Shown here one piece after another: positions 9,959 through 30,655 of a DNA stretch of 64,000 nucleotides (within the stretch, counting starts at the first letter, position 1; each line of letters opens with the position of its first letter). The DNA lies in assembly GCA_017465055.1 (NCBI GenBank), contig JAFTWZ010000017.1:1-64000 (forward strand), written 5' to 3'. The notes under the pieces were generated by a model, which saw nothing but the letters and a program-made list of their open reading frames with translations, searched no databases and had not been told where the DNA came from. Source of the DNA: Alistipes sp. GTDB taxonomy: Bacteria; Bacteroidota; Bacteroidia; Bacteroidales; Rikenellaceae. Made by a program: the position numbers and the translations under genes.

Positions 9959-9999
9959 ACCTATATATAATTATGTCATCTATACACTCTCTTCAGTCG

Positions 10000-12495
10000 C
10001 TACATCTTAAAGGTCACGATGGTGATTCCTGCACCACCCCTATCGGCGTGGTCATCGGCCACCGTAGCCACATCGGGCACGCTACGCAGGTAGCGACGTA
10101 TCTCCTCCTTAAGCGCTCCTGTACCCTTGCCGTGGAGTATCGTAACCGTAGAGACACCAACCATAAGGGCATCGTCGACCAAGTCCTCGACAGCCTCCAG
10201 GGCCTCCGCTGCACGCATACCGCGCACGTCGATATGGTCTCTGAAGTTGAGCTTGCGCTCGCGGATATCTACCGACACCACCGTGCGCGCCGCAACGGGA
10301 CGTGTAGCCTGACGGTACTCCGACGACGAGACACACTTAAGGCGCGAAACATCGACCATTATGAGCATCTCGCCAAAGGCCACCTGCGCCTTCTTACCCT
10401 TGAGCATCTTAACGACACCAGGAATATCCTGACCCTCGAGCTTAACCTTCGAGCCTACCTCTACGACCTGAGGCGTAATCTCAGCAGGCTTCTGCTCTAC
10501 CACGCCACCCTGCTTCTCGCGCTCCTCGGCGCGGCGCTCGCGGCGCTCTCTGCGACGTGCCAGGCGCTCCATCTCGCGCTCTATACGCTCGTCGCTACTT
10601 GAGTTAGCACCCTCTGCGCCACCCTCCACGAAGCTCTCTAATTCGCGACGTGCCAGGCGCGTAAGCTCCTTGTCGGCCTGCGACTCGCGAATCGTGCGTA
10701 TCGTATTCTCTATCGTGCGACGCGCCTCGGCAATCATCTCCTCGGCCTCGCGGCGTGCACGTTCGATAATCTCGCGGCGCTCATCCTTGATGCTCTTCAG
10801 GCGGTCGGTATATGTCTGCTCGAGCTGCTCAACCTTGCGGTCGGTCATACGTATTCGGTCACGCTTCTCGGCCCAGTAGCGCTTGTCGCGCGCAATCTCG
10901 CGCAGCTGCTTCTCGAGGTTTATATGGTCCTCGCCAGCCTTATCCATAGCGCTGCGCACGATATCCTCGGGCAGACCTATCTTGCGTGCCACCTCGATGG
11001 CAAACGAGCTTCCTGGCTTACCCATCTCGAGGCTAAAGAGCGGCATTATGTTTCTCACATCAAAGGTCATAGCGCCATTGGCTACGCCCTCGTTACGCGA
11101 TGCGAAGTACTTAATATTGGCGTAGTGCGTGGTGATGACGCCGTAGCATCTACGCTCTACAAAGCGCTCGAGTATCGACTCCGAGATAGCACCACCTATC
11201 GTAGGCTCTGTACCCGAGCCAAACTCGTCGATGAGTATCAGCACACGCTCCGAGACCTCCTCGAGCATACTCTTCATATTAACCAAGTGCGACGAGTAGG
11301 TCGATAGGTCGTTCTCGATAGATTGCTGGTCGCCGATATCGATCATCAGCGAGTTAAATATCGGGAACTCCGAGTTCTCAAGCGTCGTAACCAAGAAACC
11401 ACACTGCACCATATATTGCAGTATGCCCGTAGTCTTAAGACATACGGACTTACCACCAGCATTAGGGCCCGAAATTACCAATATGCGGCGCTCGCTATTA
11501 AGCTCCATATCCAGCGGCACAATCTCCTTTTGCTGACTGCGCAGCGTCTGCTGCAGGAGCGGATGTCGCGCCTTGCGTAGCAATAGTCGCCCCTCGGTCG
11601 AGATAATCGGGCGCACAGCACCATTGGCTATGGCCCAGCGAGCCTTAGCACGTAGCACATCGATATGTGTCAAGTAGGCCTCGATACGCTCTATGCCGGC
11701 CACCTCGGAGCGCAGCAACGCCGTAAGCTCGGTAAGTATTCGCACCACCTCGCGCTTCTCCTCGTACTCCAGTTCGCGAAGCTCGTTGTTAAGCTCCACA
11801 ACCTCTACTGGCTCGATATAGAAGGTACGTCCCGTGGCCGACTCATCGTGTATGAAGCCTGCAATCTTACGCTTGTTGGCCGCCGCAACGGGAATCACTG
11901 CGTGGCCATCGCGTATGGATATCATAGCGTCGGCATCTACAATACCCGAACTCTTAGCCTTCTGTAGCACCTGCTGCAGACGCTTAGCCACCTGACCTTC
12001 GTGATCGCGTATGGCTCGACGTATCGTCGACAGCTCCTCCGAGGCCGACGAGCGCACCTCGCCCTTATCGTCGATGACACGCTCTAAGGCGCGTTGCAAC
12101 TCTGGAAATATCTCCACGCCACGCGTCAGAGCCTTGAGGCGTGGATAGCTACCCTCGCGACGCGAGGTGATAAAGCCTACGATAGCTGCCGCCGAGCGCA
12201 GAGCCTTAAGAAGTGCGGCACACTCCTCGGCCAGTAAGTACGATCCCTCGACGGCTATCTTATCTACTATAGGGCGTAGCTCCTCGCCCTCACCAATCTC
12301 GGCACCGGGCTCAAAGGATATCACTTGACGCATCTCGTCAGCAAGTTCGAGTCGCTGCTCAATCTTCTGACGCGAACTGAGGAACCCCTCCGCGGCGATA
12401 ACTTCGCGCGCCGACGAGGTGGAACACATCTCCACGATCTGCTCCCTGATACGGTCAAAGCCTATCCTCTGCTCAAAATTCTTAGGATATATCAT
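10000..12495 (-). CDS. mutS2: Endonuclease MutS2
   Basis: The protein has 831 residues. A MutS-type ABC ATPase carries Walker A GPNAGGKS at 343-350 and Walker B ILIDEFGSGTEP. A long charged coiled-coil region follows, then a C-terminal Smr nuclease domain (about 755-831) with the DVRGMRAAEALE and LHGKGTG motifs. The mismatch-recognition domain I of MutS is absent, as expected for MutS2. The family suppresses homologous recombination and, in Bacillus, acts on collided ribosomes. It lies 41 bp before murF-alr and 55 bp after the MlaD-family gene on the same strand. Confidence 0.96.
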   Translation of the reverse strand: MIYPKNFEQRIGFDRIREQIVEMCSTSSAREVIAAEGFLSSRQKIEQRLELADEMRQVISFEPGAEIGEGEELRPIVDKIAVEGSYLLAEECAALLKALRSAAAIVGFITSRREGSYPRLKALTRGVEIFPELQRALERVIDDKGEVRSSASEELSTIRRAIRDHEGQVAKRLQQVLQKAKSSGIVDADAMISIRDGHAVIPVAAANKRKIAGFIHDESATGRTFYIEPVEVVELNNELRELEYEEKREVVRILTELTALLRSEVAGIERIEAYLTHIDVLRAKARWAIANGAVRPIISTEGRLLLRKARHPLLQQTLRSQQKEIVPLDMELNSERRILVISGPNAGGKSVCLKTTGILQYMVQCGFLVTTLENSEFPIFNSLMIDIGDQQSIENDLSTYSSHLVNMKSMLEEVSERVLILIDEFGSGTEPTIGGAISESILERFVERRCYGVITTHYANIKYFASRNEGVANGAMTFDVRNIMPLFSLEMGKPGSSFAIEVARKIGLPEDIVRSAMDKAGEDHINLEKQLREIARDKRYWAEKRDRIRMTDRKVEQLEQTYTDRLKSIKDERREIIERARREAEEMIAEARRTIENTIRTIRESQADKELTRLARRELESFVEGGAEGANSSSDERIEREMERLARRRERRERRAEEREKQGGVVEQKPAEITPQVVEVGSKVKLEGQDIPGVVKMLKGKKAQVAFGEMLIMVDVSRLKCVSSSEYRQATRPVAARTVVSVDIRERKLNFRDHIDVRGMRAAEALEAVEDLVDDALMVGVSTVTILHGKGTGALKEEIRRYLRSVPDVATVADDHADRGGAGITIVTFKM

Positions 12496-12550
12496 ACCTC
12501 TACGCTACGCCAATAATCTTATCTACAATTAACATTAAACCTTTACGAGG

Positions 12551-13561
12551 CTACTCCTCTACCTCTACTGTCAGGTCTCTCTTTGCAGCCTTCTTTTCGG
12601 CTTTTGCTGCCTTTTTATCGGCCTTAGCCTCCTTCTTAGCTGCCTTCTGTGCAGCCTTATCCTCCGAGCTGCCGAACAACGAGAAGTGAACATAACGCAT
12701 AGGGTTAGCCTTAAGATCCTCGAGCAGTAGGCCGAGGTTATCTCCAGCAGTAGTGAGCGAGTCGTATAGCTCGGTATCGTTGAGCAACTTACCTATCGAG
12801 CCATCGCCCTTCTCGATAGCAGCCAGCACGCCATTAAGCTCGCCTACCGTAGTCTCGAGATTAGCCACAAGCTCTGCCTCGGCAAGGTCGCCAGTAAACT
12901 CGTCGAGATTAGCGAGCATAGACTCTATGCGGCCAGTATTCTCCGCCAGCGTCGACGTAAACGTGCTAAGGTCATCCATAGCACCTTTGATATCGCTCGA
13001 CGAAGCGGCTAAGATGCCGTCGATAGATGCGGTCATAGACTCGAGGTTAGCCACAAGCTCCGATATCTTAGCAGCGTTATCGCCAAGCAGAGCGTTGACG
13101 CTACCTATCGTAGTATTCAGACCATCGATAAGCTCCGTGCCCTTATCTGCCAGTGAGCCGAGCATATCGGCCTTAACGCGACCCTCAATCGTAGCACCAC
13201 TCTCGAGGCACTCCGCAGCGTCGCCCTGAACGATGGCTATCTCTACGCCACCCATAAGCCCTGCAGAGCCTATCTCGGCAACCGAGTTTTGTGGTATCAT
13301 AGACTCGTACTTACTCTCCACAGCTATCTCGACCTTGACTCTATCGCGCTCGAGCTCAATATCTCGAACATTACCCACAGCCACGCCACGTAGCTTCACG
13401 CGCGACGACTCCTGCAAGCCCGAAACATCGTCGTAGTAGACATAATAGATATTGCTCGTGAGCAACACATTCTGACCACCGAGCCACTTGATACCCCACC
13501 AAGCAACTGCGATAACGATAACGGCAAAGATGCCGACCTTAAACTCTCTCTTCAATTTCAT
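12551..13561 (-). CDS. MlaD/MCE-family lipid transport protein
   Basis: The protein has 336 residues from the ATG at 13561; the frame also opens at a TTG three codons upstream. An N-terminal membrane helix (about 8-25) is followed by one MCE domain (about 35-115, containing VKLRGVAVGNVRDIELE). A long helical periplasmic region with many Ala, Ser and Leu comes next, and then a Lys/Ala-rich tail. MCE proteins form rings that carry phospholipids between the inner and outer membranes, working with an MlaE permease and MlaF ATPase, neither of which is in the window. It lies between the amidase (51 bp) and mutS2 (55 bp). Confidence 0.9.
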   Translation of the reverse strand: MKLKREFKVGIFAVIVIAVAWWGIKWLGGQNVLLTSNIYYVYYDDVSGLQESSRVKLRGVAVGNVRDIELERDRVKVEIAVESKYESMIPQNSVAEIGSAGLMGGVEIAIVQGDAAECLESGATIEGRVKADMLGSLADKGTELIDGLNTTIGSVNALLGDNAAKISELVANLESMTASIDGILAASSSDIKGAMDDLSTFTSTLAENTGRIESMLANLDEFTGDLAEAELVANLETTVGELNGVLAAIEKGDGSIGKLLNDTELYDSLTTAGDNLGLLLEDLKANPMRYVHFSLFGSSEDKAAQKAAKKEAKADKKAAKAEKKAAKRDLTVEVEE

Positions 13562-17967: not shown

Positions 17968-18097
17968 AATTTGTTGTCAAAAGTCGTGAGATGTGGTGCA
18001 TCGCTAAAGAAGATCCCCTCGGGATAGTACTCGTAGTACAGCCCGAGGGGTCTCACTTTTGGGATGTGCCGCAGCTTGCGACTTTTCACAACAAATT
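17968..18097. repeat. Inverted-repeat element (family copy 1) at the M3 peptidase stop codon
   Basis: A 19-bp inverted repeat (17968-17986 and 18079-18097, one mismatch) begins AATTTGTTGT at each end. Inside are GATGTGGTGC, a 9-bp hairpin stem CCCCTCGGG / CCCGAGGGG (18015-18023 and 18042-18050) capped by GTAC-TCGTA-GTAC, and GATGTGCCGCAG. The right end overlaps the TAA of the minus-strand M3 peptidase gene by 2 bp. The same architecture recurs at 40101-40480. No ORF or transposase is inside. Confidence 0.82.
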
Positions 18098-20195
18098 ACT
18101 CGAGATTCATCTGATCGATAAGAGCCTTAGTCTGTGGCTTGTGACCACGGAAGTTAACGTAGAGCTCCATAGGGTGCTGGTGACCACCCTTCTCGAGAAC
18201 CTCGTAGCGGAACTTGTCGGCAACCTCCTTAGAGAAGATACCTTGCTCCTTGAAGTACGAGAATGCATCGGCAGCGAGAACCTCAGCCCACTTGTAGCCG
18301 TAGTAGCCAGTAGCGTAACCACCGCTGAAGATGTGGGTAAAGGCAGGGCCCATAGCACAACCATCGACGATAGGTACAACCTTTGTAGGCTGGAGAGCCT
18401 CAAGTTCGAAGGCCATAACGTCGCCCTCGTAAGGAGTAGTGATGGTATGCCAAGCCATATCGAGCATACCGAATGAGAGCTGACGAACGTTGAAGTAGGC
18501 AGCGAGGTAGTTCTTAGCGGCGATAAGCTTCTCGATAAGCTCAGCAGGCATAGCCTCGCCAGTCTGGTAGTGCTTAGCCCAGAGGTCGAGGTACTCCTTC
18601 TCTGTAGCCCAGTTCTCCATAATCTGCGAAGGGAGCTCTACGAAGTCGCGCTTAACAGACGTGCCGTTGATAGACTCATACTTACCCTTAGCGAGGATGC
18701 CGTGAAGACCGTGACCAAACTCGTGGAGGAAGGTGGTAAGCTCGTCGAAGGTGAGAAGCGAAGGAGTTGTAGCCGTAGGCTTGGTGAAGTTCATCACGAG
18801 CTGCACCAAAGGACGCTGCTCAACGCCATCCTTAGTGCTCACACCACGGAACTCGGTCATCCACGCACCCTGGCGCTTAGACTCGCGTGGGAAGAAGTCG
18901 AGATAGAGGATAGCCAAAAGCTCGCCATCGTCGCCCTTAACCTCGTAAGCGGTAGCCTCGGGGTGGTATGTCTCGATTTCGGGAGCAGGGGTAAAGGTAA
19001 GGCCATAGAGCTTACCTGCAAGCATAAAGACTGCATCCTTAACGTTCTCGAGCTGTAGGTATGGCTTAATCTGCTCGTCGTTGATGGCATACTTAGCCTC
19101 CTTATACTTCTCGTTGTAGTAACCCCAGTCCCAGGGCATAAGCTCGCCCTCGAAACCGAGCTCGTGGGCATAGGCCGTAACGGTAGCAACATCCTTCTTA
19201 GCGTAGTCGAGCGTAGCCTCGCAAAGCTCATCGAGGAAGTCGTTAACGATTGTGCGGCTCTCGGCCATACGATCCTCCAATACGTAGTCGGCGTAGCACT
19301 CGTAGCCAAGAAGCTTAGCTATCTGAAGGCGGAGGTTAGCAATCTTGCGGATGTTCTCCATATTGTCATTCTCGCCACCTACGCCACGTGTGTTGTATGC
19401 CTTGTAGAGCTGCTCCTTAAGGTCGCGCTGCGACGAGTAGGTCATAAATGGGCCATAGCTTGGAGCCTGGAGCGTAACAGTCCAGCCCTCCTGGCCACGA
19501 GCCTCAGCCTCGGCAGCAAGACCCTCCTTCACGAAGTCGGGAAGCTCGGCAACCTTAGCCTCGTCTGTGATGTTGAGCGCAAAGGCGTTGGTAGCAGCCA
19601 GAGCGTTCTGGCCGAACTGGAGCGTGAGATTCGAGAGCTCGGTAGTATACTGGCGATAAAGCTCCTGAGCCTCGCCCTCGAGCAGAGCACCCGAGCGAGC
19701 AAAGCTCTTATATGTCTCCTCGAGGAGCTGACGATCCTCGGTGTCGAGATTGAGCGTCTCGCGCTGGTCGTAGACAGCCTTAACACGAGCGAAGAGCTCG
19801 GGGTTGAGTGATACGTCGTTTGAGAGAGCCGTGAGCTTAGGGGTAACGTTGAGTGCTACCTGCTGCATCTCCTCAGAGGTAACGCAGTTGTTAAGCACGA
19901 AGAATACGCCAGACACGCGGCCAAGAAGCTCGCCAGACTGCTCCATAGCTACGATTGTATTCTCGAAGGTTGGAGCCTCGGGGTTGTTGATGATAGCGTC
20001 GATCTCGGCACGGTTCTGCTCGATAGCGTAGTCGAAGGCAGGCTCGTAGTGCTTAAGCTCGATCTTTGAGAATGGTGGGGTCTGATATGGAGTATTCCAC
20101 TCCTCGAGTAGTGGGTTACCAGCAGGCATATTGCTTTGCTGGCAGCCAACAAGACCCATAGTCAATGCTGACATAACAAAAAGTAGTTTTTTCAT
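18096..20195 (-). CDS. M3-family zinc metallopeptidase, lipoprotein (Dcp/oligopeptidase type)
   Basis: The protein has 699 residues. A lipoprotein signal peptide ends at the lipobox LVGC (Cys18), so the enzyme is probably anchored in the outer or inner membrane facing the periplasm. The long helical N-terminal part is typical of M3 peptidases. The zinc motif HEFGH is at 491-495 after TFDELTTFL, with the distal Glu and the usual YSSQ-like and GYATGYYGYKWAEVL segments downstream. M3 enzymes degrade short peptides such as signal-peptide fragments. A paralogue lies 97 bp upstream on the same strand. Confidence 0.94.
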   Translation of the reverse strand: MKKLLFVMSALTMGLVGCQQSNMPAGNPLLEEWNTPYQTPPFSKIELKHYEPAFDYAIEQNRAEIDAIINNPEAPTFENTIVAMEQSGELLGRVSGVFFVLNNCVTSEEMQQVALNVTPKLTALSNDVSLNPELFARVKAVYDQRETLNLDTEDRQLLEETYKSFARSGALLEGEAQELYRQYTTELSNLTLQFGQNALAATNAFALNITDEAKVAELPDFVKEGLAAEAEARGQEGWTVTLQAPSYGPFMTYSSQRDLKEQLYKAYNTRGVGGENDNMENIRKIANLRLQIAKLLGYECYADYVLEDRMAESRTIVNDFLDELCEATLDYAKKDVATVTAYAHELGFEGELMPWDWGYYNEKYKEAKYAINDEQIKPYLQLENVKDAVFMLAGKLYGLTFTPAPEIETYHPEATAYEVKGDDGELLAILYLDFFPRESKRQGAWMTEFRGVSTKDGVEQRPLVQLVMNFTKPTATTPSLLTFDELTTFLHEFGHGLHGILAKGKYESINGTSVKRDFVELPSQIMENWATEKEYLDLWAKHYQTGEAMPAELIEKLIAAKNYLAAYFNVRQLSFGMLDMAWHTITTPYEGDVMAFELEALQPTKVVPIVDGCAMGPAFTHIFSGGYATGYYGYKWAEVLAADAFSYFKEQGIFSKEVADKFRYEVLEKGGHQHPMELYVNFRGHKPQTKALIDQMNLE

Positions 20196-20292: not shown

Positions 20293-22545
20293 TTACTCGA
20301 TATCGGCAGGCGCCTTACCCTTAATCACCGGGCGCTTTATAGGGCGCATCTGAGGAGGAGTAGGCCTGCGACCAGGCTCTACAGTCGCCTCCTGAAGCTC
20401 AGCGTCGAGCTCGGCCTCTTCAACCTTAGGCTCGGGCTCGGCCCACAAGCCACGTGCCTTGAGCATAGCGCTCTTATCTGGCTCAGCACCGCGGAACTTA
20501 CGATACATATCCATACCTGCGCGCTGGCCACCCTGAGCCAGAAGGTCGTAGCGGAAGCTACGCGCCAAATCCTTGTCGCAGATATCGCGGCACTCTTTGA
20601 ACGCTGCAAAGGCGTCCTTGTCGAGCACCTCGGCCCAGAGGTAGAAGTAGTAGCCTGACGAGTAGCCACCGTTGAAGATATGCGCGAAGTAGGTGTAGCG
20701 ATAGCGTGGCTCTATCTCGGGGATAAGACCGCGACGTGTCGCCAAGTTATACTTCTCGAAGTCGTTGATATCCATATCGGTATACTTCTCCAGCGAGTGG
20801 ATATCCATATCGATGAGCGCAGCGGCCGCAAGCTCCGTAGTCACGAAGCCCTGATTGAATAGCGCAGCATTCTGAATCTTCGCGATGAGCTTATCGGAGA
20901 TCACCTCGCCCGTCTTGTAGTGGATAGCATACTCCTTCATAATCTCTGGCTCGAATGCCCAGTTCTCCATAATCTGCGATGGCAGCTCCACAAAGTCGCC
21001 CTCAACCTCCGACAGGCCGCGATAGCGCACATCGGCAAAGAGGAAGTGTAGCGCGTGGCCAAACTCGTGGAACATAGTCTCGGCCTCGTCGAACGACAAG
21101 AGCGATGGAGTGTCGCCCACTGGAGGTGTGAAGTTGCAGACGATACCTACGACTGGTGCCTTACGCTTACCATCGACGTAGCGCTGCTCGGTAAAGTTGC
21201 CGCACCAAGCGCCACCACTCTTCGACTTACGTGGGTATGGGTCGATATAGAGGACACCTACGTGCGACTGGTCGTGGTCGAGGACCTCGTATACGCTGCA
21301 CTCCTTGTGGTAGCGAGGCGCTACTATAGGACGGAATGATACGCCATAGAGGCGATTAGCCAAGTAGAACATACCGTTACGCACGTTGTCGAGCGAGAGG
21401 TACTGGCGCACAGCCTCCTCGTCGAGCTGATACTTCTGCTTGCGCACCTGCTCGGCATAGTACCACCAATCGGACTTCTCGAACTCGGCATCGGGATAGT
21501 CGCGTGCGAAGAGCTCCTTCATAGCCTCCAGCTCGCGCTCGGCAGACTCCAGCGCTGGCTCCCATATCTCGTCCAAGAGTTTGTAAACAGCCTCGGGCGA
21601 GCCAGCCATCTGATCGGCTGTAACGTAGTGTGAGTACGACTTATAGCCGAGCAAGTTGGCCTTCTCGACACGCAAGCGTGCCATATCCTCGGCCAGCTGT
21701 TTGTTATCGAACTCGTTGTCATTGTTACAGCGCATAATATAGCCGTTGTATAGCTGGCGACGAAGGTCGCGATCCTTGCTGTAGGTGAGGAATGGGAGCA
21801 TACTTGGCTTATCGAGCGTGAAGACGTAGCCCTCCTTGCCCATAGCCTTAGCGGCCTCCTGAGCCTGGTTCTTGACACCCTCGGGGAGATCGGCCACCTG
21901 CTGAGCATTAAGCTCGAGGTAGAAGCCAGCATTCTCGGCAAGAAGGTTGTTACCGAAGCGTATCGACAGCTCCGATAGTTCGGCGTTTATCTGCATCAGA
22001 CGCTCCTTCTCAGCGCCCTCGAGCAGAGCACCCGAGCGCACGAAGTCGTTATAGGTCTTCTCCAAGAGGCGCATCTGCACCTGGTCAAGCTTGAGGCTCT
22101 TACGTTTATCGTATACGGCCTTGACGCGCTCGAAGAGGGCATCGTTGAGCATAATGGTGTTGTAGTGCTCCTCAACGCGAGGCATTATGCGGTTCTGCAC
22201 CTCCTGCATCTCGGCATCGAGGTCCGACGACGAGAGCATACCGAAGATAAGGTTTATCTCCATTAGCTTGACGCCAGCGTTGTCGAGTGCTACGATGACG
22301 TTGTCGAACGTAGGCTCCTCGGTGCTATTTACAATGGCATCGATTTCGTCATTGTGCATCTGCATAGCCTCGTTGAAGGCAGGCTCGAAATGTACGGTGC
22401 GTATTTTGTCAAATGGAGGCACACCAAACTCCGTAGTCCACTCCTCGAGCAGTGGGTTGCCACTCTCCGAGATAGTCTCGCTACCACACGATAGATTCAT
22501 AGTCATAGCAAACAATAGTGACGATAATGTTAAAAGGCGTTTCAT
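20293..22545 (-). CDS. M3-family zinc metallopeptidase, lipoprotein (second paralogue)
   Basis: The protein has 750 residues. Its N-terminus MKRLLTLSSLLFAMTMNLSC ends in a lipobox (Cys20). The zinc motif HEFGH occurs at about residue 500 in MFHEFGHALHF, and GYSSGYYFYLWAEVLDKDAF matches the M3 C-terminal signature. It is clearly homologous along its length to the neighbouring 699-residue peptidase (both carry NPLLEEW and SGALLEG), so the pair is a tandem duplication. Unlike its partner it has an extra 60-residue tail rich in Glu, Pro and Arg (EPKVEEAELDAELQ). It starts 17 bp from a divergent promoter palindrome shared with rsmE. Confidence 0.94.
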   Translation of the reverse strand: MKRLLTLSSLLFAMTMNLSCGSETISESGNPLLEEWTTEFGVPPFDKIRTVHFEPAFNEAMQMHNDEIDAIVNSTEEPTFDNVIVALDNAGVKLMEINLIFGMLSSSDLDAEMQEVQNRIMPRVEEHYNTIMLNDALFERVKAVYDKRKSLKLDQVQMRLLEKTYNDFVRSGALLEGAEKERLMQINAELSELSIRFGNNLLAENAGFYLELNAQQVADLPEGVKNQAQEAAKAMGKEGYVFTLDKPSMLPFLTYSKDRDLRRQLYNGYIMRCNNDNEFDNKQLAEDMARLRVEKANLLGYKSYSHYVTADQMAGSPEAVYKLLDEIWEPALESAERELEAMKELFARDYPDAEFEKSDWWYYAEQVRKQKYQLDEEAVRQYLSLDNVRNGMFYLANRLYGVSFRPIVAPRYHKECSVYEVLDHDQSHVGVLYIDPYPRKSKSGGAWCGNFTEQRYVDGKRKAPVVGIVCNFTPPVGDTPSLLSFDEAETMFHEFGHALHFLFADVRYRGLSEVEGDFVELPSQIMENWAFEPEIMKEYAIHYKTGEVISDKLIAKIQNAALFNQGFVTTELAAAALIDMDIHSLEKYTDMDINDFEKYNLATRRGLIPEIEPRYRYTYFAHIFNGGYSSGYYFYLWAEVLDKDAFAAFKECRDICDKDLARSFRYDLLAQGGQRAGMDMYRKFRGAEPDKSAMLKARGLWAEPEPKVEEAELDAELQEATVEPGRRPTPPQMRPIKRPVIKGKAPADIE

Positions 22546-23324: not shown

Positions 23325-25310
23325 ATGTTTTTATACTCATTACTGGCAGCAGCTGTAGTTGTCACAGTGGCCCTATTCCTCACACCACTGAGGTACAAGG
23401 TGTGGGTGGCTACAGGTGTCATCGTTACAGCGGCCATAGCAGCCATTAGCCTCGCGGTGATGGCACTCGGAGGCGATGAGGTTACGCTCGCGGAGCTAAC
23501 CACACTCCTCGGCGCTGAGAGCATAGCCGTAGATAAGCTCTCGTCGCTATTCCTTATTATCATATCTATAGCCTCGGTAGCTACGGTACTCTACTCGAAG
23601 GGCTATGTCGAGGGCTACCTCAAGCGCTTCTCCTCGGCCCATATCGCACTGCACTACACAGCATTGGTATTTTTAGTAGTCTCGATGATGGTGGTGGTGA
23701 TGTCCAGCGGAGGCTTTTCGTTCCTCTTTGCGTGGGAGCTGATGACCATAGCCTCGTTTGTGCTCATACTCTTCGAGGCCGACCGTCACGATGTGCGCCG
23801 TGCCGCGCTTAACTACCTTGTGATGATGCACATAGGCTTTATGTTCTTGGTCATAGGCTTCGTGTTGCTGTACAACGTCACTGGCTCGGCAAACTTCTCG
23901 GCCATAATGGAGTACTTCAAGGTTGAGGCACCATTGCCACTCTTTGTCATTCTCTTTATCGGCTTTGGTATGAAGGCTGGTATCTTCCCTATGCACATAT
24001 GGCTTCCCGAGGCTCACCCAGCAGCTCCGTCGCACGTCTCGGCCATAATGTCGGGTGTGATGATTAAGACGGGCGTATACGGCATTATGCGCCTTATGCA
24101 GGGTATCGACCAGAATGGCGAGTTGCTCTATACCATAGGTCTTATCGTGCTGCTCTCGGGCATCGTAACGGGCCTCTGGGGCGTGATACTTGCCGCTATG
24201 CAGAACGATATCAAGCGCCTATTGGCATACTCGAGTATCGAGAACATAGGCGTGATACTCATAGGCCTGGGTATCGCTGCCGTAGGTCACGCCGCAGGTA
24301 GCGACCTTATAGGTATGTGCGGACTCTGTGGCGCACTACTCCACACCGTAAACCACTCGCTGTTTAAGAGTATGCTCTTCTTCAGCGCTGGAAACATCTA
24401 CTCGAAGCTCCACACTACGGCGATGAACCAGATGGGCGGTCTGGCAAAACATATGCCTATCACGGCGATGCTTATGCTGCTGGCTACGCTTGCCATCTGC
24501 GCCCTACCACCACTCAACGGCTTTGTCTCGGAGCTGCTCATCTACATCGGTATGTTCAACGGCGTCAGCGATGGCCACGAGGTGCTCTACTCGGTAGCTG
24601 GCATCATAGCCCTATCGCTTATTGGCGGTATCGTGGTGCTGGCCTTCACGAAGCTCTACGGCGTAGTATTCCTCGGCTCGCCACGCTCGACACACGTGGC
24701 CGAGAGTAGCGAGGTCGACAGCCTGCGCATAGGCGCAATGGCTATACCTGCTGCGCTGATACTCTTCATCGGCCTATTGCCACAATACGCCATACGCCCC
24801 ATAACAGTTGTCGCCGAGGCTATCTCGGGTGCGGACAACACCATAGCGCTCAACTACTTCGCCCCTACGCTTAAGGCTGTAAGCTCGGCTGGTTGGATAC
24901 TCTTAGCCATCGTGCTTCTACTCTTTGCGCTTAAGCACTACCTGCAGAGCCGCACCAAAATTGAAGAGGGTCCGACGTGGGGTTGTGGCTTTACAGCACT
25001 AAACACTCGTATGCAGTACACTGGCGAGTCATTCTCCGAGGGATTAGAGAACATCGGCAAGCCTCTGATGAAGGATACGGTCGATGGTCGCGCCGTAGAC
25101 AAGGGCGAGATATTCCCCAAGCCACACAACTACCACATTGTGCATAAGGATAAGGTCGACTCGCTACTCGGACAGTGGTGGGTAAGGATGCTACACCGCA
25201 TAAACGAGTGGGTTATGCGTCTGCGTACTGGCCGCGTAAACAACTACATCACCTTCGCCCTGGCGTTCTTTATCGTCGTACTGATACTGAGCCTCGTAGG
25301 CATACTCTAA
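23325..25310 (+). CDS. Ehr/hydrogenase-4-type complex, HyfB-like antiporter subunit
   Basis: The protein has 661 residues and about 15-16 membrane helices. It belongs to the NuoL/M/N and Mrp antiporter superfamily, HyfB branch. Conserved charged residues of the ion channel are present: Glu in FAWELMTIASF, Lys in GFGMKAGIFPMHIW, and Lys in HTVNHSLFKSMLFF. The C-terminal extension WGCGFTALNTRMQYTGESF is typical of HyfB. It is expected to move H+ or Na+ across the inner membrane when driven by the peripheral arm. It is the first of six genes that together match a group-4-hydrogenase-like membrane complex. Confidence 0.92.
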   Translation: MFLYSLLAAAVVVTVALFLTPLRYKVWVATGVIVTAAIAAISLAVMALGGDEVTLAELTTLLGAESIAVDKLSSLFLIIISIASVATVLYSKGYVEGYLKRFSSAHIALHYTALVFLVVSMMVVVMSSGGFSFLFAWELMTIASFVLILFEADRHDVRRAALNYLVMMHIGFMFLVIGFVLLYNVTGSANFSAIMEYFKVEAPLPLFVILFIGFGMKAGIFPMHIWLPEAHPAAPSHVSAIMSGVMIKTGVYGIMRLMQGIDQNGELLYTIGLIVLLSGIVTGLWGVILAAMQNDIKRLLAYSSIENIGVILIGLGIAAVGHAAGSDLIGMCGLCGALLHTVNHSLFKSMLFFSAGNIYSKLHTTAMNQMGGLAKHMPITAMLMLLATLAICALPPLNGFVSELLIYIGMFNGVSDGHEVLYSVAGIIALSLIGGIVVLAFTKLYGVVFLGSPRSTHVAESSEVDSLRIGAMAIPAALILFIGLLPQYAIRPITVVAEAISGADNTIALNYFAPTLKAVSSAGWILLAIVLLLFALKHYLQSRTKIEEGPTWGCGFTALNTRMQYTGESFSEGLENIGKPLMKDTVDGRAVDKGEIFPKPHNYHIVHKDKVDSLLGQWWVRMLHRINEWVMRLRTGRVNNYITFALAFFIVVLILSLVGIL

Positions 25311-25337: not shown

Positions 25338-26255
25338 ATGTTAGTAAAGATATTAAACACACTGCTTATGCTTGTTGTCGCCCTCTCGATTACGGGCGTC
25401 ATCAACCGCACGCGCGCACTGCTGGCCGGACGTAAGGGCATACGCTTCTTCCAGCACATCTACAACGTCAGGTTGCAACTGCGCAAAGGCTCGGTATACT
25501 CTACCACGACAACCGCACTCTTCCGCATAGCTCCAGTGGTATACCTCGGTAGCACGCTTCTGGCCTTCTTATTCATCCCCGTTGCCGACCTTGAGCCACT
25601 GCTCTCGTTCCACGGCGACATAATCTTGGTAGCATACCTGCTGGCCCTTTCGCGCGTGGCTATTGTCCTTGCGGCGATGGATACAGGTAGCTCGTTCGAG
25701 GGTATGGGCGCGGCACGCGAGGCCCTCTACGGAGCACTTGTCGAGCCAGCGCTGATGATGGCAATGGCGACCCTGGCCCTCTTCTGTGGCTACTCGTCGT
25801 TTGCCGATATCTTCTCTACGGCGCAGGAGATGGACGTAAACCTTAGCATCGTGCTTATCCTGGTAGCCTACGTATTCTTCATCATTATGGTCATCGAGGC
25901 TGGCCGCGTGCCTGTCGACGACCCGAAGACCCACCTCGAGCTTACGATGATTCACGAGGTTATGTGCCTCGACTACTCGGGCGTAGATATGGGTCTTATC
26001 CACATTGCAGGCTGGCTAAAGAATGCGATATTTGCCGTTATCGCCGCTAATGCCGTGGCGGTGACCATCTCGTTCCACTGGTGGTTTGCAGCGCCTCTGG
26101 CCATCATCGTCACGGGCGTAGCCATAGGCGTTGTCGAGTCGCTTCGCGCACGCAACAAGCTCTCGCGTAACATCACCTACATACTCACCATCGTGGCTAT
26201 GGCAGCTCTGGTGTTGCTCACAGGCTTCCTACTCATTCAGAACATAGAAATATAG
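25338..26255 (+). CDS. Ehr/hydrogenase-4-type complex, HyfC-like (NuoH-type) membrane subunit
   Basis: The protein has 305 residues and about eight membrane helices. It shares the NuoH/HyfC fold that links the redox arm to the ion-pumping subunits. Diagnostic segments are GRKGIRFFQHIYNVRLQLRK near the start and the acidic loop VDDPKTHLELTMIHEVM, which in complex I contacts the quinone-site or large-subunit interface. It starts 27 bp after the HyfB-like gene. The start ATG at 25338 gives a normal hydrophobic first helix. Confidence 0.93.
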   Translation: MLVKILNTLLMLVVALSITGVINRTRALLAGRKGIRFFQHIYNVRLQLRKGSVYSTTTTALFRIAPVVYLGSTLLAFLFIPVADLEPLLSFHGDIILVAYLLALSRVAIVLAAMDTGSSFEGMGAAREALYGALVEPALMMAMATLALFCGYSSFADIFSTAQEMDVNLSIVLILVAYVFFIIMVIEAGRVPVDDPKTHLELTMIHEVMCLDYSGVDMGLIHIAGWLKNAIFAVIAANAVAVTISFHWWFAAPLAIIVTGVAIGVVESLRARNKLSRNITYILTIVAMAALVLLTGFLLIQNIEI

Positions 26256-26265
26256 GAGATACGCT

Positions 26266-26892
26266 ATGATACTATCACTAATCATACTATACACGCTGAC
26301 GCTCATCTATCTGTCGATAGCTGACCGCTTCCGCAACCACGCCTCGATACTTGCCATCCAGGGATTACTACTTTTTGGCATCGCCATAGCACGTATGCAC
26401 GAGTTTCACCCTGTGGAGATGAGCTTCATCATCGTCGAGACCTTTGTATTCAAGGCTATAGTCATCCCTGCGATACTTTTGCACGTCATCCACAAGACCA
26501 AGATTAACCGCATACATTCGTCATCGTCGCAGTTTGGCGCACTTACGATGTCGATAGTGGCACTGGTGGCCAGTTGCACCATAACCTACTATATGGCCGA
26601 CAGCCGCACCGATATGATATTCTTCGGCGTGGCGCTATACGCACTGCTCTCGGGACTTATCCTCATCGTTATGCGTAAGCGAATATTTGCACACTTGGTC
26701 GGATTTCTGGTTATCGAGAATGGTGTGTTCCTCTTCTCGATGGCTATAGGTGTCGAGCTTCCGATGCTTATCAACCTCGCTATTATGCTCGATATCCTTA
26801 TCTCAATACTCATCCTCGGTATGTTCCTCCGCCGCTTGGACAACGACATACATACAGACGAGACGGATGCTCTAACCTCGATTAAAGATTAA
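26266..26892 (+). CDS. Ehr/hydrogenase-4-type complex, HyfE-like subunit
   Basis: The protein has 208 residues, is highly hydrophobic and has about six helices. It fits HyfE, whose C-terminal half is NuoK-like: the segment LVGFLVIENGVFLFSMAIGVELP resembles NuoK, with a membrane-buried Glu in IEN. It is 10 bp after the HyfC-like gene, preceded by AGGAG, and 5 bp before the HyfF-like gene. The C-terminus is polar (DTDETDALTSIKD-like). Identification rests on length, topology and operon position. Confidence 0.85.
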   Translation: MILSLIILYTLTLIYLSIADRFRNHASILAIQGLLLFGIAIARMHEFHPVEMSFIIVETFVFKAIVIPAILLHVIHKTKINRIHSSSSQFGALTMSIVALVASCTITYYMADSRTDMIFFGVALYALLSGLILIVMRKRIFAHLVGFLVIENGVFLFSMAIGVELPMLINLAIMLDILISILILGMFLRRLDNDIHTDETDALTSIKD

Positions 26893-26897
26893 CGACT

Positions 26898-28316
26898 ATG
26901 GAAATGCTTATATACATCATACTCTCGGTACTTCTGGCCATAGCCCCCTTAGCTGTGCGCTCGGAGCGCGCTACGCACCTCATCGCAGGGGCTTTCTTCT
27001 TGGTTCAGGTGGCAGCCATAGCCTTAGTCATCGCCTTCGACCGCATCGACTGCGTTATGCTCTCGATATTCCGCGCCGACACCTTAGCCGTGCTCTTCCA
27101 CATACTTATGACCTTAGTGCTCGGCTTTACGCTGATACACTCGTCGTCGTACCTCAAGGCCGAGGATATCTCGACACGCTCATACAAGGCCTACTACACG
27201 CTACTTATGCTCCTTGCTGTGGCCATCAGCTGCGTCTACTACTCGGACAACGTAGCTATGACGTGGGTATTCCTCGAGGCTACGACCATCTGCTCGGCAG
27301 GTATCATCTACCACCGCGAGTTTAGGCAATCGTTGGAGGCAACGTGGAAGTACATCTTCGTATGCTCTACGGGTATCGCTATGGCATACCTCGGCATCCT
27401 GCTCCTCTCTACCGTTGCACACCACGGCGCTTTGGACTACGCCGCGCTTAAGGAGGTCATCGCCGAGGGTAACCCACTATACCTCAAGGTCGCCTTCCTG
27501 CTTATCGTCGTGGGCTACAGCTGTAAGATGGAGATATTCCCGCTATACACCGTGGGCGTCGATGCCAACTACGCCGCTATAGCTCCCGCCTCGGCATTTA
27601 TCTCTACGGCACTGGTCAACGCAGGTTTCCTGTCAATCTACCGCATCTATGACCTCTACGCCGCATCGGGCGAGGTGTTTGAGTGGGCGCGCCACCTGTT
27701 GATACTCATAGGTATCCTATCGTTGGCCGTAGGAGCTATGTTCCTGCGCCGTACCAACAACTACAAGCGCTTCTTGTCCTACTCTACTGTCGAGAATATG
27801 GGTATCGTGGCCATAGGCCTCGGTATCGGAGGCATAGCACTCTGGGCTGCAGTGTTCCACGTCGTATGCCACACGCTGGTCAAGAGCTCGATGTTCTACC
27901 AGGTGGGCATCGTGCGACACATATACGACAGCTACAGCATCAACCGCATAGGCAACTATATGAACATCAACAAGGTGGGTGCTATAGGCATCATCGTCGG
28001 CACTTTAGTGCTGCTGGCCTTCCCACCCTCGCCACTCTTCGTCTCGGAGGTTATGATCTTCTCCGAGATTGTCACCGTAGGCAGCTGGTGGCTCTTGGCC
28101 TTGATGCTGGTGCTTATGTGCGTGGTGATATACTCTATCTGGAGCCGCACGTTGCGCTTAGGCTACCACTCTAACCAGGACGAGCTACACCTCTCGGCCG
28201 TAAACCGCCGCCTGTCGTACTCGGCAGCCATACTACTCATCGTAGCAATCGTATTGGGTATATGGCAGCCTCAAGTACTCAAGGAGGCTATTGACATCAT
28301 CGTAAACATCGGCTAA
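26898..28316 (+). CDS. Ehr/hydrogenase-4-type complex, HyfF-like antiporter subunit
   Basis: The protein has 472 residues and about 14 membrane helices. It is a second NuoN/M-like antiporter subunit, distinct from the first. Conserved features include Glu in MTWVFLEATTICSAG, Lys in YSCKMEIFPLYTVGVDANY, Lys in NNYKRFLSYSTVENMGI, and HTLVKSSMFYQVG. The order HyfB-C-E-F-G matches E. coli hyf without the HyfD paralogue. The spacing of 5 and 4 bp to its neighbours shows tight translational coupling. Confidence 0.91.
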   Translation: MEMLIYIILSVLLAIAPLAVRSERATHLIAGAFFLVQVAAIALVIAFDRIDCVMLSIFRADTLAVLFHILMTLVLGFTLIHSSSYLKAEDISTRSYKAYYTLLMLLAVAISCVYYSDNVAMTWVFLEATTICSAGIIYHREFRQSLEATWKYIFVCSTGIAMAYLGILLLSTVAHHGALDYAALKEVIAEGNPLYLKVAFLLIVVGYSCKMEIFPLYTVGVDANYAAIAPASAFISTALVNAGFLSIYRIYDLYAASGEVFEWARHLLILIGILSLAVGAMFLRRTNNYKRFLSYSTVENMGIVAIGLGIGGIALWAAVFHVVCHTLVKSSMFYQVGIVRHIYDSYSINRIGNYMNINKVGAIGIIVGTLVLLAFPPSPLFVSEVMIFSEIVTVGSWWLLALMLVLMCVVIYSIWSRTLRLGYHSNQDELHLSAVNRRLSYSAAILLIVAIVLGIWQPQVLKEAIDIIVNIG

Positions 28317-28320
28317 CGCT

Positions 28321-29832
28321 ATGAAACTATACTACACGACAAACAATAGAGCCTCGGCCGTGGTGCTTCAAGATATCCCCGTGGTGGAGTATATGGAGCT
28401 ATACCACGACCTCAGCGAGCGTATGCACGACACACGCTACCACGTAGCTCACTACTTCGCAACGGAGATAGAGAACGGCCTGCGTTTCTTTATGCTCGTG
28501 CTCGACGACGAGACTGGCGAGGTGCTCATCACCTCGTTTATCCCCGACTACTACGCCGAGGGATTAGCATCTCTTACGGCGGTGCACCCACAGTTCCACC
28601 CCTTCGAGCGCGAGATGCACGAGCTCTACGGCATACCCTTCGACAGCCACCCCTGGCTTAAGCCTCTGCGCTTCAGCCACGATAGGCGCGACAGGAGCTC
28701 GACGATGGATAGCTACCCCTTCTACGAGATCGAGGGTAAGGAGCTTCACGAGGTAAACGTAGGCCCTATCCACGCAGGCATCATCGAGCCTGGCGCCTTC
28801 CGCTTTATCTGCGATGGAGAGCAGGTGCTACACCTCGAAATCGCCTTAGGCTACCAGCACCGCGGCGTCGAGGGCGAGATGGTCAAGAGCGACAACCGCC
28901 TGCGCCAGACGCTCATCGCCGAGTCCATAGCTGGCGATACGGCTGTGGGCCACGCTACTGCATATTGCGAACTTATCGAGAAGCTGGCAGGTGTCGAGGT
29001 TTCAAAGTCACTACGCTTGGAGCGTATGATAGCCATCGAGCTTGAGCGTATAGCTATGCACCTTGCCGACACGGGAGCTTTGGCTACGGATATCGGTTTT
29101 CAGCTCTACCAGGTAGCCTGCGAGGCGCTACGTACCGTGACTATCAACACCACACAGGCGTGGTGCGGCAACCGCTTTGGCAAGAGCTTGATACGCCCTA
29201 TGGGTAGCAATCACCCCCTTACCGAGGCTAAGATAGAGCTTATACGCAAGAATATCACCGACGTACGCCGCCGCTACTGCGAGCTACGTGAAGATATCCT
29301 CGAGGCGCACACGCTCTTGGCCCGTTTCGAGCAGTGTGGTCTTGTGCCTAAGAGCGAGATGGAGCGCATCGGAGGCGTCGGTCAGGCCGCCAGAGCCAGT
29401 GGTCTTAAGCGCGACATACGCCACACGCACCCCTCGGGCTACTACGCCGAGATGGAGCACACCCCCATTGTTAAGAGCGAGTGCGATGTTATGGCACGCC
29501 TTGCAACACGCCTCGACGAGGTTATTCAGAGTGCCGACTACGTAGAGCGTCTCTTGTCTGGCTACGCGCCATCTAAGGATATCGCAGCTCCGAACTACGA
29601 GGCTCAGCTGAAGGGCGAGGCTCTCTCGTTCTCGCTTGTCGAGGGCTGGCGCGGCGAGATATGCCACGTGGCACTTACGAATGGCGATGGTCGCATCGTA
29701 AAGTATAAGGTTAAGGATCCAAGCCTTCACAACTGGCTCGGCCTGGCCATAGCCGTACGCTCGGAGGGTATCTCTGACTTCCCAATTAATAATAAGAGCT
29801 TCAACCTATCGTACTGCGGTCACGACCTGTAA
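28321..29832 (+). CDS. Ehr complex large subunit, HyfG-like (NuoC+NuoD fusion) without NiFe ligands
   Basis: The protein has 503 residues. Residues 1-130 are NuoC/HyfG-N-like (HPFEREMHELYGIPF) and about 145-503 are the hydrogenase-large/NuoD fold. True NiFe hydrogenases bind the metal with RxCGxC and DPCxxC. Here the aligned sites read ESIAGDT (201-207) and SFNLSYCGHDL (493-503), so at most one of the four cysteines remains and no NiFe site can form. This is the hallmark of the Ehr group of complex-I relatives. It is the membrane-arm partner of the 29894-30655 protein, which starts 61 bp downstream. Confidence 0.9.
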   Translation: MKLYYTTNNRASAVVLQDIPVVEYMELYHDLSERMHDTRYHVAHYFATEIENGLRFFMLVLDDETGEVLITSFIPDYYAEGLASLTAVHPQFHPFEREMHELYGIPFDSHPWLKPLRFSHDRRDRSSTMDSYPFYEIEGKELHEVNVGPIHAGIIEPGAFRFICDGEQVLHLEIALGYQHRGVEGEMVKSDNRLRQTLIAESIAGDTAVGHATAYCELIEKLAGVEVSKSLRLERMIAIELERIAMHLADTGALATDIGFQLYQVACEALRTVTINTTQAWCGNRFGKSLIRPMGSNHPLTEAKIELIRKNITDVRRRYCELREDILEAHTLLARFEQCGLVPKSEMERIGGVGQAARASGLKRDIRHTHPSGYYAEMEHTPIVKSECDVMARLATRLDEVIQSADYVERLLSGYAPSKDIAAPNYEAQLKGEALSFSLVEGWRGEICHVALTNGDGRIVKYKVKDPSLHNWLGLAIAVRSEGISDFPINNKSFNLSYCGHDL

Positions 29833-29893: not shown

Positions 29894-30655
29894 ATGCTAT
29901 TTGGAAAGGCAAAGATACTGCGCAGCCACGGCTGGCAATATATCCCCGACTTAGACGCCGTAACCCTCACCGAGGAGTTTCGCGGCTTCCCGATACTTAG
30001 CGAGACCAAAGAGAAGGACGACATAGAGCGTGCGGCGAAGTTGTGCCCTACGGGAGCTATAACCACTGCCCCACTTACGCTCGATATGGGCAAGTGTCTC
30101 TTCTGTGGTGAGTGCCAGAGGTGCGCACCACGCAACATACGCTTTACCAACGAGCACCGCCTTGCCGCCACGCGCCGCGAGGATCTTGTGGTCAAGGCTG
30201 GCGACACAGCCCCCAAGTTCGACACGTCGGTCATACGTCCCGAGATAGCTCGCTACTTTGGCCAGGCGTTGCAGCTGCGCGAGGTGTCGGCTGGTGGCGA
30301 CTGCTCGGTGGAGATGGAGCTTAACGCTACGGGCAACGTAAACTTCGACTTCGGCCGCTATGGCGTGGGCTTTACCGCCTCGCCACGCCACGCCGATGGT
30401 CTTGTACTCACAGGCCCTATAAGCCAGAATATGGCCGAGGCGCTCGACATATGCTACAACTCGATTGCCGAGCCTAAGATACTGGTTGTTTGCGGCTCGG
30501 AGGCCATCTCCGGAGGTCTCTACGCCAATAGCCCTGCTGTCGACAGGTCATTTTTGGATAAATATCACGTCGACCTATGGCTCCCTGGAGCACCTACACA
30601 CCCCCTATGCTTCATCGACGGCATCACTCGCCTACGCAAGAAGCAACGTAAGTAA
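29894..30655 (+). CDS. Ehr complex ferredoxin-small subunit fusion (HyfH-HyfI-like) with lost cluster ligands
   Basis: The protein has 253 residues. Residues 1 to about 100 are HyfH/NuoI-like with KLCPTGAI (Cys51) and CLFCGECQRCAP (Cys68, 71, 74, 77). The three cysteines that normally precede CPTGAI are absent, so probably one [4Fe-4S] cluster forms instead of two. Residues about 125-245 are HyfI/NuoB-like, but the N2-cluster ligands are replaced: CxxC by Asp136 and Val139, the third Cys by Glu203 (GSEAISGG), and the fourth by Ala233 (LPGAPTHP). A normal proximal cluster cannot form. The gene still looks intact and conserved in fold. purC follows after 23 bp. Confidence 0.85.
   Translation: MLFGKAKILRSHGWQYIPDLDAVTLTEEFRGFPILSETKEKDDIERAAKLCPTGAITTAPLTLDMGKCLFCGECQRCAPRNIRFTNEHRLAATRREDLVVKAGDTAPKFDTSVIRPEIARYFGQALQLREVSAGGDCSVEMELNATGNVNFDFGRYGVGFTASPRHADGLVLTGPISQNMAEALDICYNSIAEPKILVVCGSEAISGGLYANSPAVDRSFLDKYHVDLWLPGAPTHPLCFIDGITRLRKKQRK

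Follow-up and report, generated by a model that had tools for sequence, protein, structure and literature searches.

An Ehr-type complex of an Alistipes-like genome whose small subunit lacks the N2-cluster cysteines

Relation to described complexes and the gene cluster

Ehr complexes (Geobacter type; also Margulisbacteria, Nitrospira, and CPR) are encoded in the order HyfB-HyfC-HyfE-HyfF-EhrL-EhrS, lack the NiFe cysteines, and bear a pocket signature in EhrL. The available literature passages on Ehr cover the missing NiFe ligands, the composition, and the expression of the complex; these passages contained nothing on N2, and no Ehr biochemistry was found in them. The window, i.e., the whole stretch of 64,000 nucleotides analysed here, belongs to a contig of a 2.13 Mb genome that is 84% complete and carries a six-gene cluster on the + strand in the same order, with EhrS last. 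Absence of the NiFe cysteines and the EhrL pocket signature are likewise common to both, and the combination of such a large subunit with antiporter-like and HyfC/HyfE-like subunits in one cluster is the one by which Ehr is recognised. The difference lies in EhrS: the proteins of Geomesophilobacter (L111) and of Kiritimatiellae (L110) retain all four N2 cysteines together with those of the distal cluster, whereas the protein of the window has lost both sets.

Several other systems share parts of this architecture. In both MBH and complex I, it is the proximal cluster that supplies the active site. Complex I has homologous NuoB, NuoD, NuoH, and NuoL subunits and shares the HRGxE motif and the acids and Lys/Glu of the membrane arm, but the complex of the window differs from it in that the N2 ligands are missing, the gene cluster includes no NADH module, and a single set of Fe-S ligands is present. 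Formate hydrogenlyase and MBH (group 4 NiFe) were among the best solved relatives (7z0s, 6cfw); however, the four NiFe-ligating cysteines that define group 4 NiFe hydrogenases are absent here, as are the N2 ligands. The MBS (membrane-bound sulfane reductase) of Pyrococcus is likewise group-4-like, no longer has NiFe, and powers ion translocation, an activity (H+ or Na+) that residue conservation predicts for our complex. According to the available passages of PMC7684303, the proximal (N2-equivalent) cluster of MBS, held by three cysteines, is the catalyst; ligands used in that way there are absent in the complex of the window. The CO2-uptake complexes DAB2 and NDH-1MS offer a possible working analogy in the form of a NuoL-like subunit serving a non-quinone reaction, but membership is not proposed, and the six proteins include no carbonic-anhydrase-like subunit.

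The genes of the cluster are the following:
23325..25310, + strand: HyfB/NuoL-like antiporter subunit with conserved Lys, Glu, and His (PF00361, 196.1 bits)
25338..26255, + strand: HyfC/NuoH-like subunit with conserved acidic residues (PF00146, 93 bits)
26266..26892, + strand: HyfE-like membrane subunit (NF008556, 49.7 bits, below the cut-off of 136; no Pfam match)
26898..28316, + strand: HyfF-like antiporter subunit (PF00361, 119.8 bits)
28321..29832, + strand: EhrL, NuoC-NuoD-like large subunit without NiFe cysteines (PF00346, 98.1 bits)
29894..30655, + strand: EhrS, 253 aa, ferredoxin domain fused to a NuoB-like domain (PF01058, 58.8 bits, cut-off 27)

The cluster is flanked by genes for an RNA methyltransferase (RsmE type) and SAICAR synthetase, and no NuoEFG-type NADH module was found among the six genes or these two direct neighbours. 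The genome itself, at its 84% completeness, yielded one PF01058 and one PF00346 match, both in the Ehr cluster, and no second NuoB or NuoD; the separate nuoB/hyfI gene that the earlier note had considered as serving the complex did not turn up, a result that such completeness does not make final. One Rnf/Nqr-type subunit is encoded in this genome. The closest named records are Rikenellaceae/Alistipes MAGs, many of them from ruminant gut, with a top identity of 93%. Upstream of the operon lie two adjacent paralogous genes on the − strand (18096-20195 and 20293-22545), the second of which matches Peptidase_M3; their paralogue family adjoins Ehr in 10 of the loci that were compared, all from the family of the window.

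The vacated N2 site and the remaining cluster of EhrS

The EhrS features considered below, where N2-plus and N2-minus denote proteins with and without the N2 cysteines, are as follows:
30299..30301, + strand: D136, at the first N2 ligand position, which is occupied by Cys in N2-plus orthologues
30308..30310, + strand: V139, second N2 ligand position by alignment (variable in N2-minus proteins)
30500..30502, + strand: E203, at the third N2 ligand position, where N2-plus orthologues likewise have Cys
30590..30592, + strand: A233, at the fourth N2 ligand position, where N2-minus proteins have A, N, T, H, or S
30302..30304, + strand: C137, suggested for a new site in the earlier note but not conserved among N2-minus proteins
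30491..30493, + strand: C200, likewise suggested for that site but not conserved among N2-minus proteins
30044..30115, + strand: C51, C68, C71, and C74, the remaining [4Fe-4S] ligand set (Cys in 158 of 158 EhrS rows, duplicates included)

The earlier note had described a NuoB-like half that keeps its fold while lacking every N2 cysteine, with D136, V139, E203, and A233 in their place. The PF01058 match bears out the fold, and the loss was confirmed by translation, in which cysteines occur solely at 51, 68, 71, 74, 77, 137, 187, 200, and 239, and by two alignments. A phmmer comparison with MbhJ of MBH (6cfw_J; E 1.2e-16) set D136 and V139 on both cysteines of SGSCNGCD, E203 on the cysteine of GAC, and A233 on that of PGCP, while alignment to N2-containing orthologues gave the identical register without gaps at the four ligand positions. 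None of the four is Cys in the EhrS of the window, unlike in its Ehr relatives L110 and L111, and the alignments with related small subunits placed no intact cysteine at any ligand site.

The contig scan gave 155 relatives, of which 78 loci were retained, so that others, perhaps from other phyla, lie outside the sample; searches of 150 genomes of the family and 395 of the phylum added further EhrS, and 34 longer regions were taken. Four copies of the window (L001 and L112-L114) were left out, and two other ferredoxins (L002, L003) were dropped from 160 rows. The resulting 158 EhrS rows, which include duplicates, comprise 126 N2-minus (109 distinct) and 32 N2-plus (17 distinct) proteins, distinctness being judged over the last 180 residues. 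For EhrL, 141 rows were available (96 distinct N2-minus, 16 distinct N2-plus); a more distant Ehr-like type (L129, L130, L145, and L146) was counted as N2-plus in the EhrL motif comparison and is absent from the pocket-conservation and class-switch sets, and two of its members (L145, L146) served as outgroups in the EhrL tree.

The suggestion in the earlier note that Cys137 and Cys200 form a new site did not survive this comparison. Among 32 non-redundant N2-minus proteins (<75% identity), C137 is present in one and C200 in nine, and C239, whose conservation had also been in question, in one. A new site built on these three cysteines was rejected; what the proteins share in the vacated site is an acidic residue at each of positions 136 and 203. 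All 109 distinct N2-minus proteins are acidic at both, with 106 Asp and 3 Glu at position 136 and 73 Glu and 36 Asp at position 203, while positions 139 and 233 hold ten and five residue types, respectively, none of them acidic. Seven EhrS columns, 136 and 203 included, are always acidic in the 32 N2-minus proteins below 75% identity. When residue classes were compared between 9 N2-plus and 32 N2-minus proteins (80% in each), only these two EhrS columns switched, a result in which the loss of Cys is true by definition but the uniformly acidic replacement is not. On a tree of 38 N2-minus representatives, Asp and Glu interchanged at least twice at 136 and at least three times at 203, always within the acidic class, and position 139 changed at least 14 times. 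The rate at the two acidic positions is not extreme, as 30% and 34% of 244 EhrS columns change as little. Many N2-minus proteins carry Asp-Cys-Asp-Asn at the four N2 positions, a set that, judged from these residues, could bind metal.

The remaining ligand set shows no change on the tree of 38 N2-minus representatives. The ligands of the distal ferredoxin cluster were also lost, the first ferredoxin motif retaining its last cysteine, C51, alone; we take the remaining set to be the medial, N6b-like cluster (complex I, Nqo9) and the lost distal one to be N6a-like. Three N2-plus lineages of Bacteroidota Ehr (L119, L123, L128; with L135, L139, L144) lack distal ferredoxin-cluster cysteines and keep N2, and since they stand apart from the N2-minus group on the EhrL tree, theirs is a separate cluster loss. 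The dN/dS ratio of EhrS was 0.044-0.112 in 10 of 11 comparisons and undefined in one, and it was low in all five genes compared; dS exceeded 1 in many comparisons, which makes the values rough.

Spread of the N2-less form, EhrL pocket, and membrane arm

The 126 N2-minus rows come from Bacteroidota records (76) and from genomes of the phylum of the window (50), and the records include Rikenellaceae, Prevotellaceae, Lentimicrobium, Saprospiraceae, and Chitinophagales, with diverged lineages 44-57% identical to the EhrS of the window. N2-plus EhrS occurs in other genomes of Bacteroidota, where close relatives keep all four cysteines, in the Kiritimatiellae MAG, and in Geomesophilobacter, these last two loci being the whole N2-plus sample outside Bacteroidota; many of the genomes are MAGs. 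Within the family of the window, 62 of 150 genomes have an EhrS match at the Ehr level (E 2.3e-69 or better). By sequence, then, the N2-less Ehr is a subfamily of Bacteroidota and not the oddity of a single genome, and no report of it was found in the open-access literature among the matches listed. The EhrL tree gives one loss of N2 (1 change, 89/58, 86% of bootstraps), whereas on the five-subunit tree an N2-plus locus (L132) falls inside the N2-minus group next to L108 (SH-aLRT 90); a single N2-minus clade was not rejected on the five-subunit data (AU p 0.092). Taken together, the trees allow N2 to have been lost once or twice. A subfamily under selection without N2 ligands offers a naturally occurring way to ask whether N2 serves coupling by its charge and its binding of protons or by delivering electrons. 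At one locus (L148, genome G013), EhrS stands alone, with EhrL about 0.38 Mb away on the same single contig.

In the large subunit, the first NiFe cysteine pair of MBH aligns with A204 and T207, and the position of the C-terminal pair reads NLSYCG, its absence being judged by eye against the usual motif. The earlier description of EhrL as NiFe-less agrees with both observations. The arginine of HRGxE, R181, is Arg in 110 of 111 N2-minus rows (one gap) and in 27 of 30 N2-plus rows, the other three having Lys. In mitochondrial complex I this arginine lies 3.7 Å from N2, and in Thermus complex I the position is Thr, according to the available passages of PMC8042128; because of the latter, the arginine is not essential everywhere. 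EhrL residues H151, D206, K492, S497, Y498, and D502 are invariant with and without N2, bar one gap. Measured as the averaged frequency of the most common residue, pocket conservation differs little with and without N2 (0.870 vs. 0.891, n=5; 0.882 vs. 0.879, n=9). Outside the pocket, EhrL shows slightly higher conservation in the N2-minus sets (0.625 and 0.631 vs. 0.590), so the lead of the pocket over the rest is slightly smaller there.

The membrane arm retains HyfB K348 and E403 in 75 of 75 N2-minus rows and HyfC E128, E136, E187, E201, E207, and D212 in 76 of 76; the membrane-arm positions whose residues carry protons in complex I are invariant or almost so. Changes that accompany the N2-minus state, in related sequences, are the gain of EhrL E234 and E268 (21 of 24 rows each) and of HyfF E212, two residues after K210 (20 of 23, vs. 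Gly in 7 of 7 N2-plus proteins), the last of which may mark a changed ion path. The TM8 lysine position of HyfF is Asn here and varies in N2-plus proteins too.

Possible modes of action and neighbouring genes

The earlier note had proposed an Ehr-type ion pump driven by something other than hydrogen or quinone chemistry. Its Ehr type, the loss of N2, and the charged path of the membrane arm were all recovered, and an ion translocator driven by something other than electron delivery through N2 is the natural, if tentative, reading of these three together. The account that we favour, with a probability of roughly 0.45, is that of an Ehr complex from an N2-less Bacteroidota subfamily acting as an ion translocator without electron delivery to the pocket, in which carboxylates replace the charge of N2. 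Judged by complex I distances, the EhrL pocket lies too far from the remaining cluster for useful tunnelling once N2 is gone, so that electrons would no longer reach it. The complex would be an ion-translocating machine of the Mrp/complex-I type (H+ or Na+/H+). By homology, the carboxylates at 136 and 203 would occupy the former place of N2 facing the HRGxE arginine, with D136, E203, and R181 close together, and would substitute for the charge of about -2 that the cluster has when oxidised; their protonation and deprotonation could take over the charge change made by N2 reduction in complex I and thereby keep the coupling to HyfC and the antiporter subunits. The remaining cluster may have a structural role or act as a redox gate for single electrons, to which soluble ferredoxin has access. 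The invariance of this cluster and of the pocket would be hard to explain if no redox chemistry were left.

A different proposal fills the vacated pocket with a new metal or a small-molecule substrate, bound by the two carboxylates and EhrL residues and supplied with electrons from the remaining [4Fe-4S] cluster. Consistent with it are the invariant ligands of that cluster, the kept acids of HyfC, and EhrL D206, K492, S497, Y498, and D502, invariant (bar the gap) in both states; outside Alistipes-like genomes, moreover, the four positions are often Asp-Cys/Thr-Asp-Asn, which is metal-capable, and downstream of the N2-minus operon of L108 lies an oxidoreductase gene of the FAD/2Fe-2S/4Fe-4S kind (9866-13096, − strand), opposite to the operon. 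The lineage of the window, however, has Val/Ile and Ala at two of the four positions, which leaves few ligands, and of the genes beside N2-minus operons that were compared with family models, none was recognised as NuoE/NuoF- or formate-dehydrogenase-like; by contrast, the N2-plus L110 has genes for Rex, HoxE/NuoE-like, NuoF-like, and FeFe-hydrogenase proteins downstream, a set of which no FeFe-hydrogenase-NuoEF-like counterpart was recognised beside N2-minus operons. We hold a new redox site to be rather unlikely. It is also unlikely that acid-base chemistry has replaced the terminal electron transfer, with the carboxylate pair and the EhrL pocket running a non-redox reaction (proton binding, or the handling of an anion or of CO2/bicarbonate) that acts on the membrane arm through long-range coupling of the same kind. 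Loss of function altogether can be given very little credence. Cysteines were lost stepwise, many family genomes have no Ehr, TAA occurs within two EhrS matches (G106, G130), and the operon is split in G013; yet dN/dS is low, membrane-arm residues are invariant, the N2-minus state persists over the diverged lineages mentioned above, and G013 retains both EhrS and EhrL, so that a pseudogene or decaying remnant is disfavoured. Nor does it seem at all credible that the N2-bearing small subunit of another complex substitutes for EhrS: the genome is incomplete, and an EhrS and a NuoB-like match occur together in some family genomes (e.g., G046, G049, G087), but our genome has its single PF01058 and PF00346 matches, and the same replacements recur in 109 distinct proteins.

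The neighbourhood of Ehr operons raises the further idea that the complex performs or energises anion uptake, such as vectorial CO2 hydration or bicarbonate transport, through a non-redox pocket reaction in the manner of DAB2/NDH-1MS. In 16 Ehr or Ehr-like genomes from other Bacteroidota families, seven of nine full-length SulP genes lay within 8.2 kb of EhrS, a manual count in Ehr-carrying genomes only that leaves out weaker partial matches; one lies 48 nt downstream of EhrS and another between EhrL and EhrS. A SulP gene also follows EhrS in the N2-minus L095 and L096 (Saprospiraceae, Chitinophagales), in L095 by Pfam. For all three SulPs tested, the best solved match was 6ki1, which we take to be the bicarbonate transporter BicA. 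As far as the passages available go, bicarbonate is transported by SulP members and one Chr member (PMC10880623), and the NuoL-like subunit of DAB2 serves a non-redox CO2 reaction (PMC13144422). Against this, all seven linked SulPs are in N2-plus genomes, five of them from one family (f18), which reduces them to three N2-plus lineages, with the N2-minus pair L095/L096 as a fourth. The only N2-minus genome of the 16 (G158) has no SulP, nor has the genome of the window, full-length SulP being present in 1 of 30 Rikenellaceae genomes; the NCBIfam BicA, DauA, and sulP models were missed at their cut-offs, and Pfam and NCBIfam revealed no carbonic-anhydrase-like domain in the six proteins of the operon. 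Anion uptake as the task of the complex is therefore quite improbable, while the occurrence of SulP next to Ehr operons in several lineages, most of them N2-plus, is a lead on function. These neighbours and the N2-less form in gut and ruminant Bacteroidota offer ways to look for the function of Ehr.

In 15 of 30 Rikenellaceae genomes, picked from the 62 with Ehr, a pair of Chr (chromate-transporter) genes lies 30-333 nt downstream of EhrS. It is also present in 33 of 34 picked family genomes without an Ehr match, and the pair was for this reason rejected as a functional partner and attributed to family synteny. Other neighbours of N2-minus operons, where tested, encode a malic enzyme-phosphotransacetylase (L088), an AMP-binding enzyme (L091), a YjeF-type protein (L131), and a ResB/cytochrome c assembly protein (L147). 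In one Ehr-like operon, a SulP-STAS-PTS EIIA fusion is encoded between EhrL and EhrS (L146:6348-8507). A gene with an EIIA domain, a possible regulator, stands upstream of HyfB in 11 N2-plus loci (e.g., L133:1816-2451); the domain was confirmed in all three such genes tested, two of which (L135, L144) also carry HTH_17.
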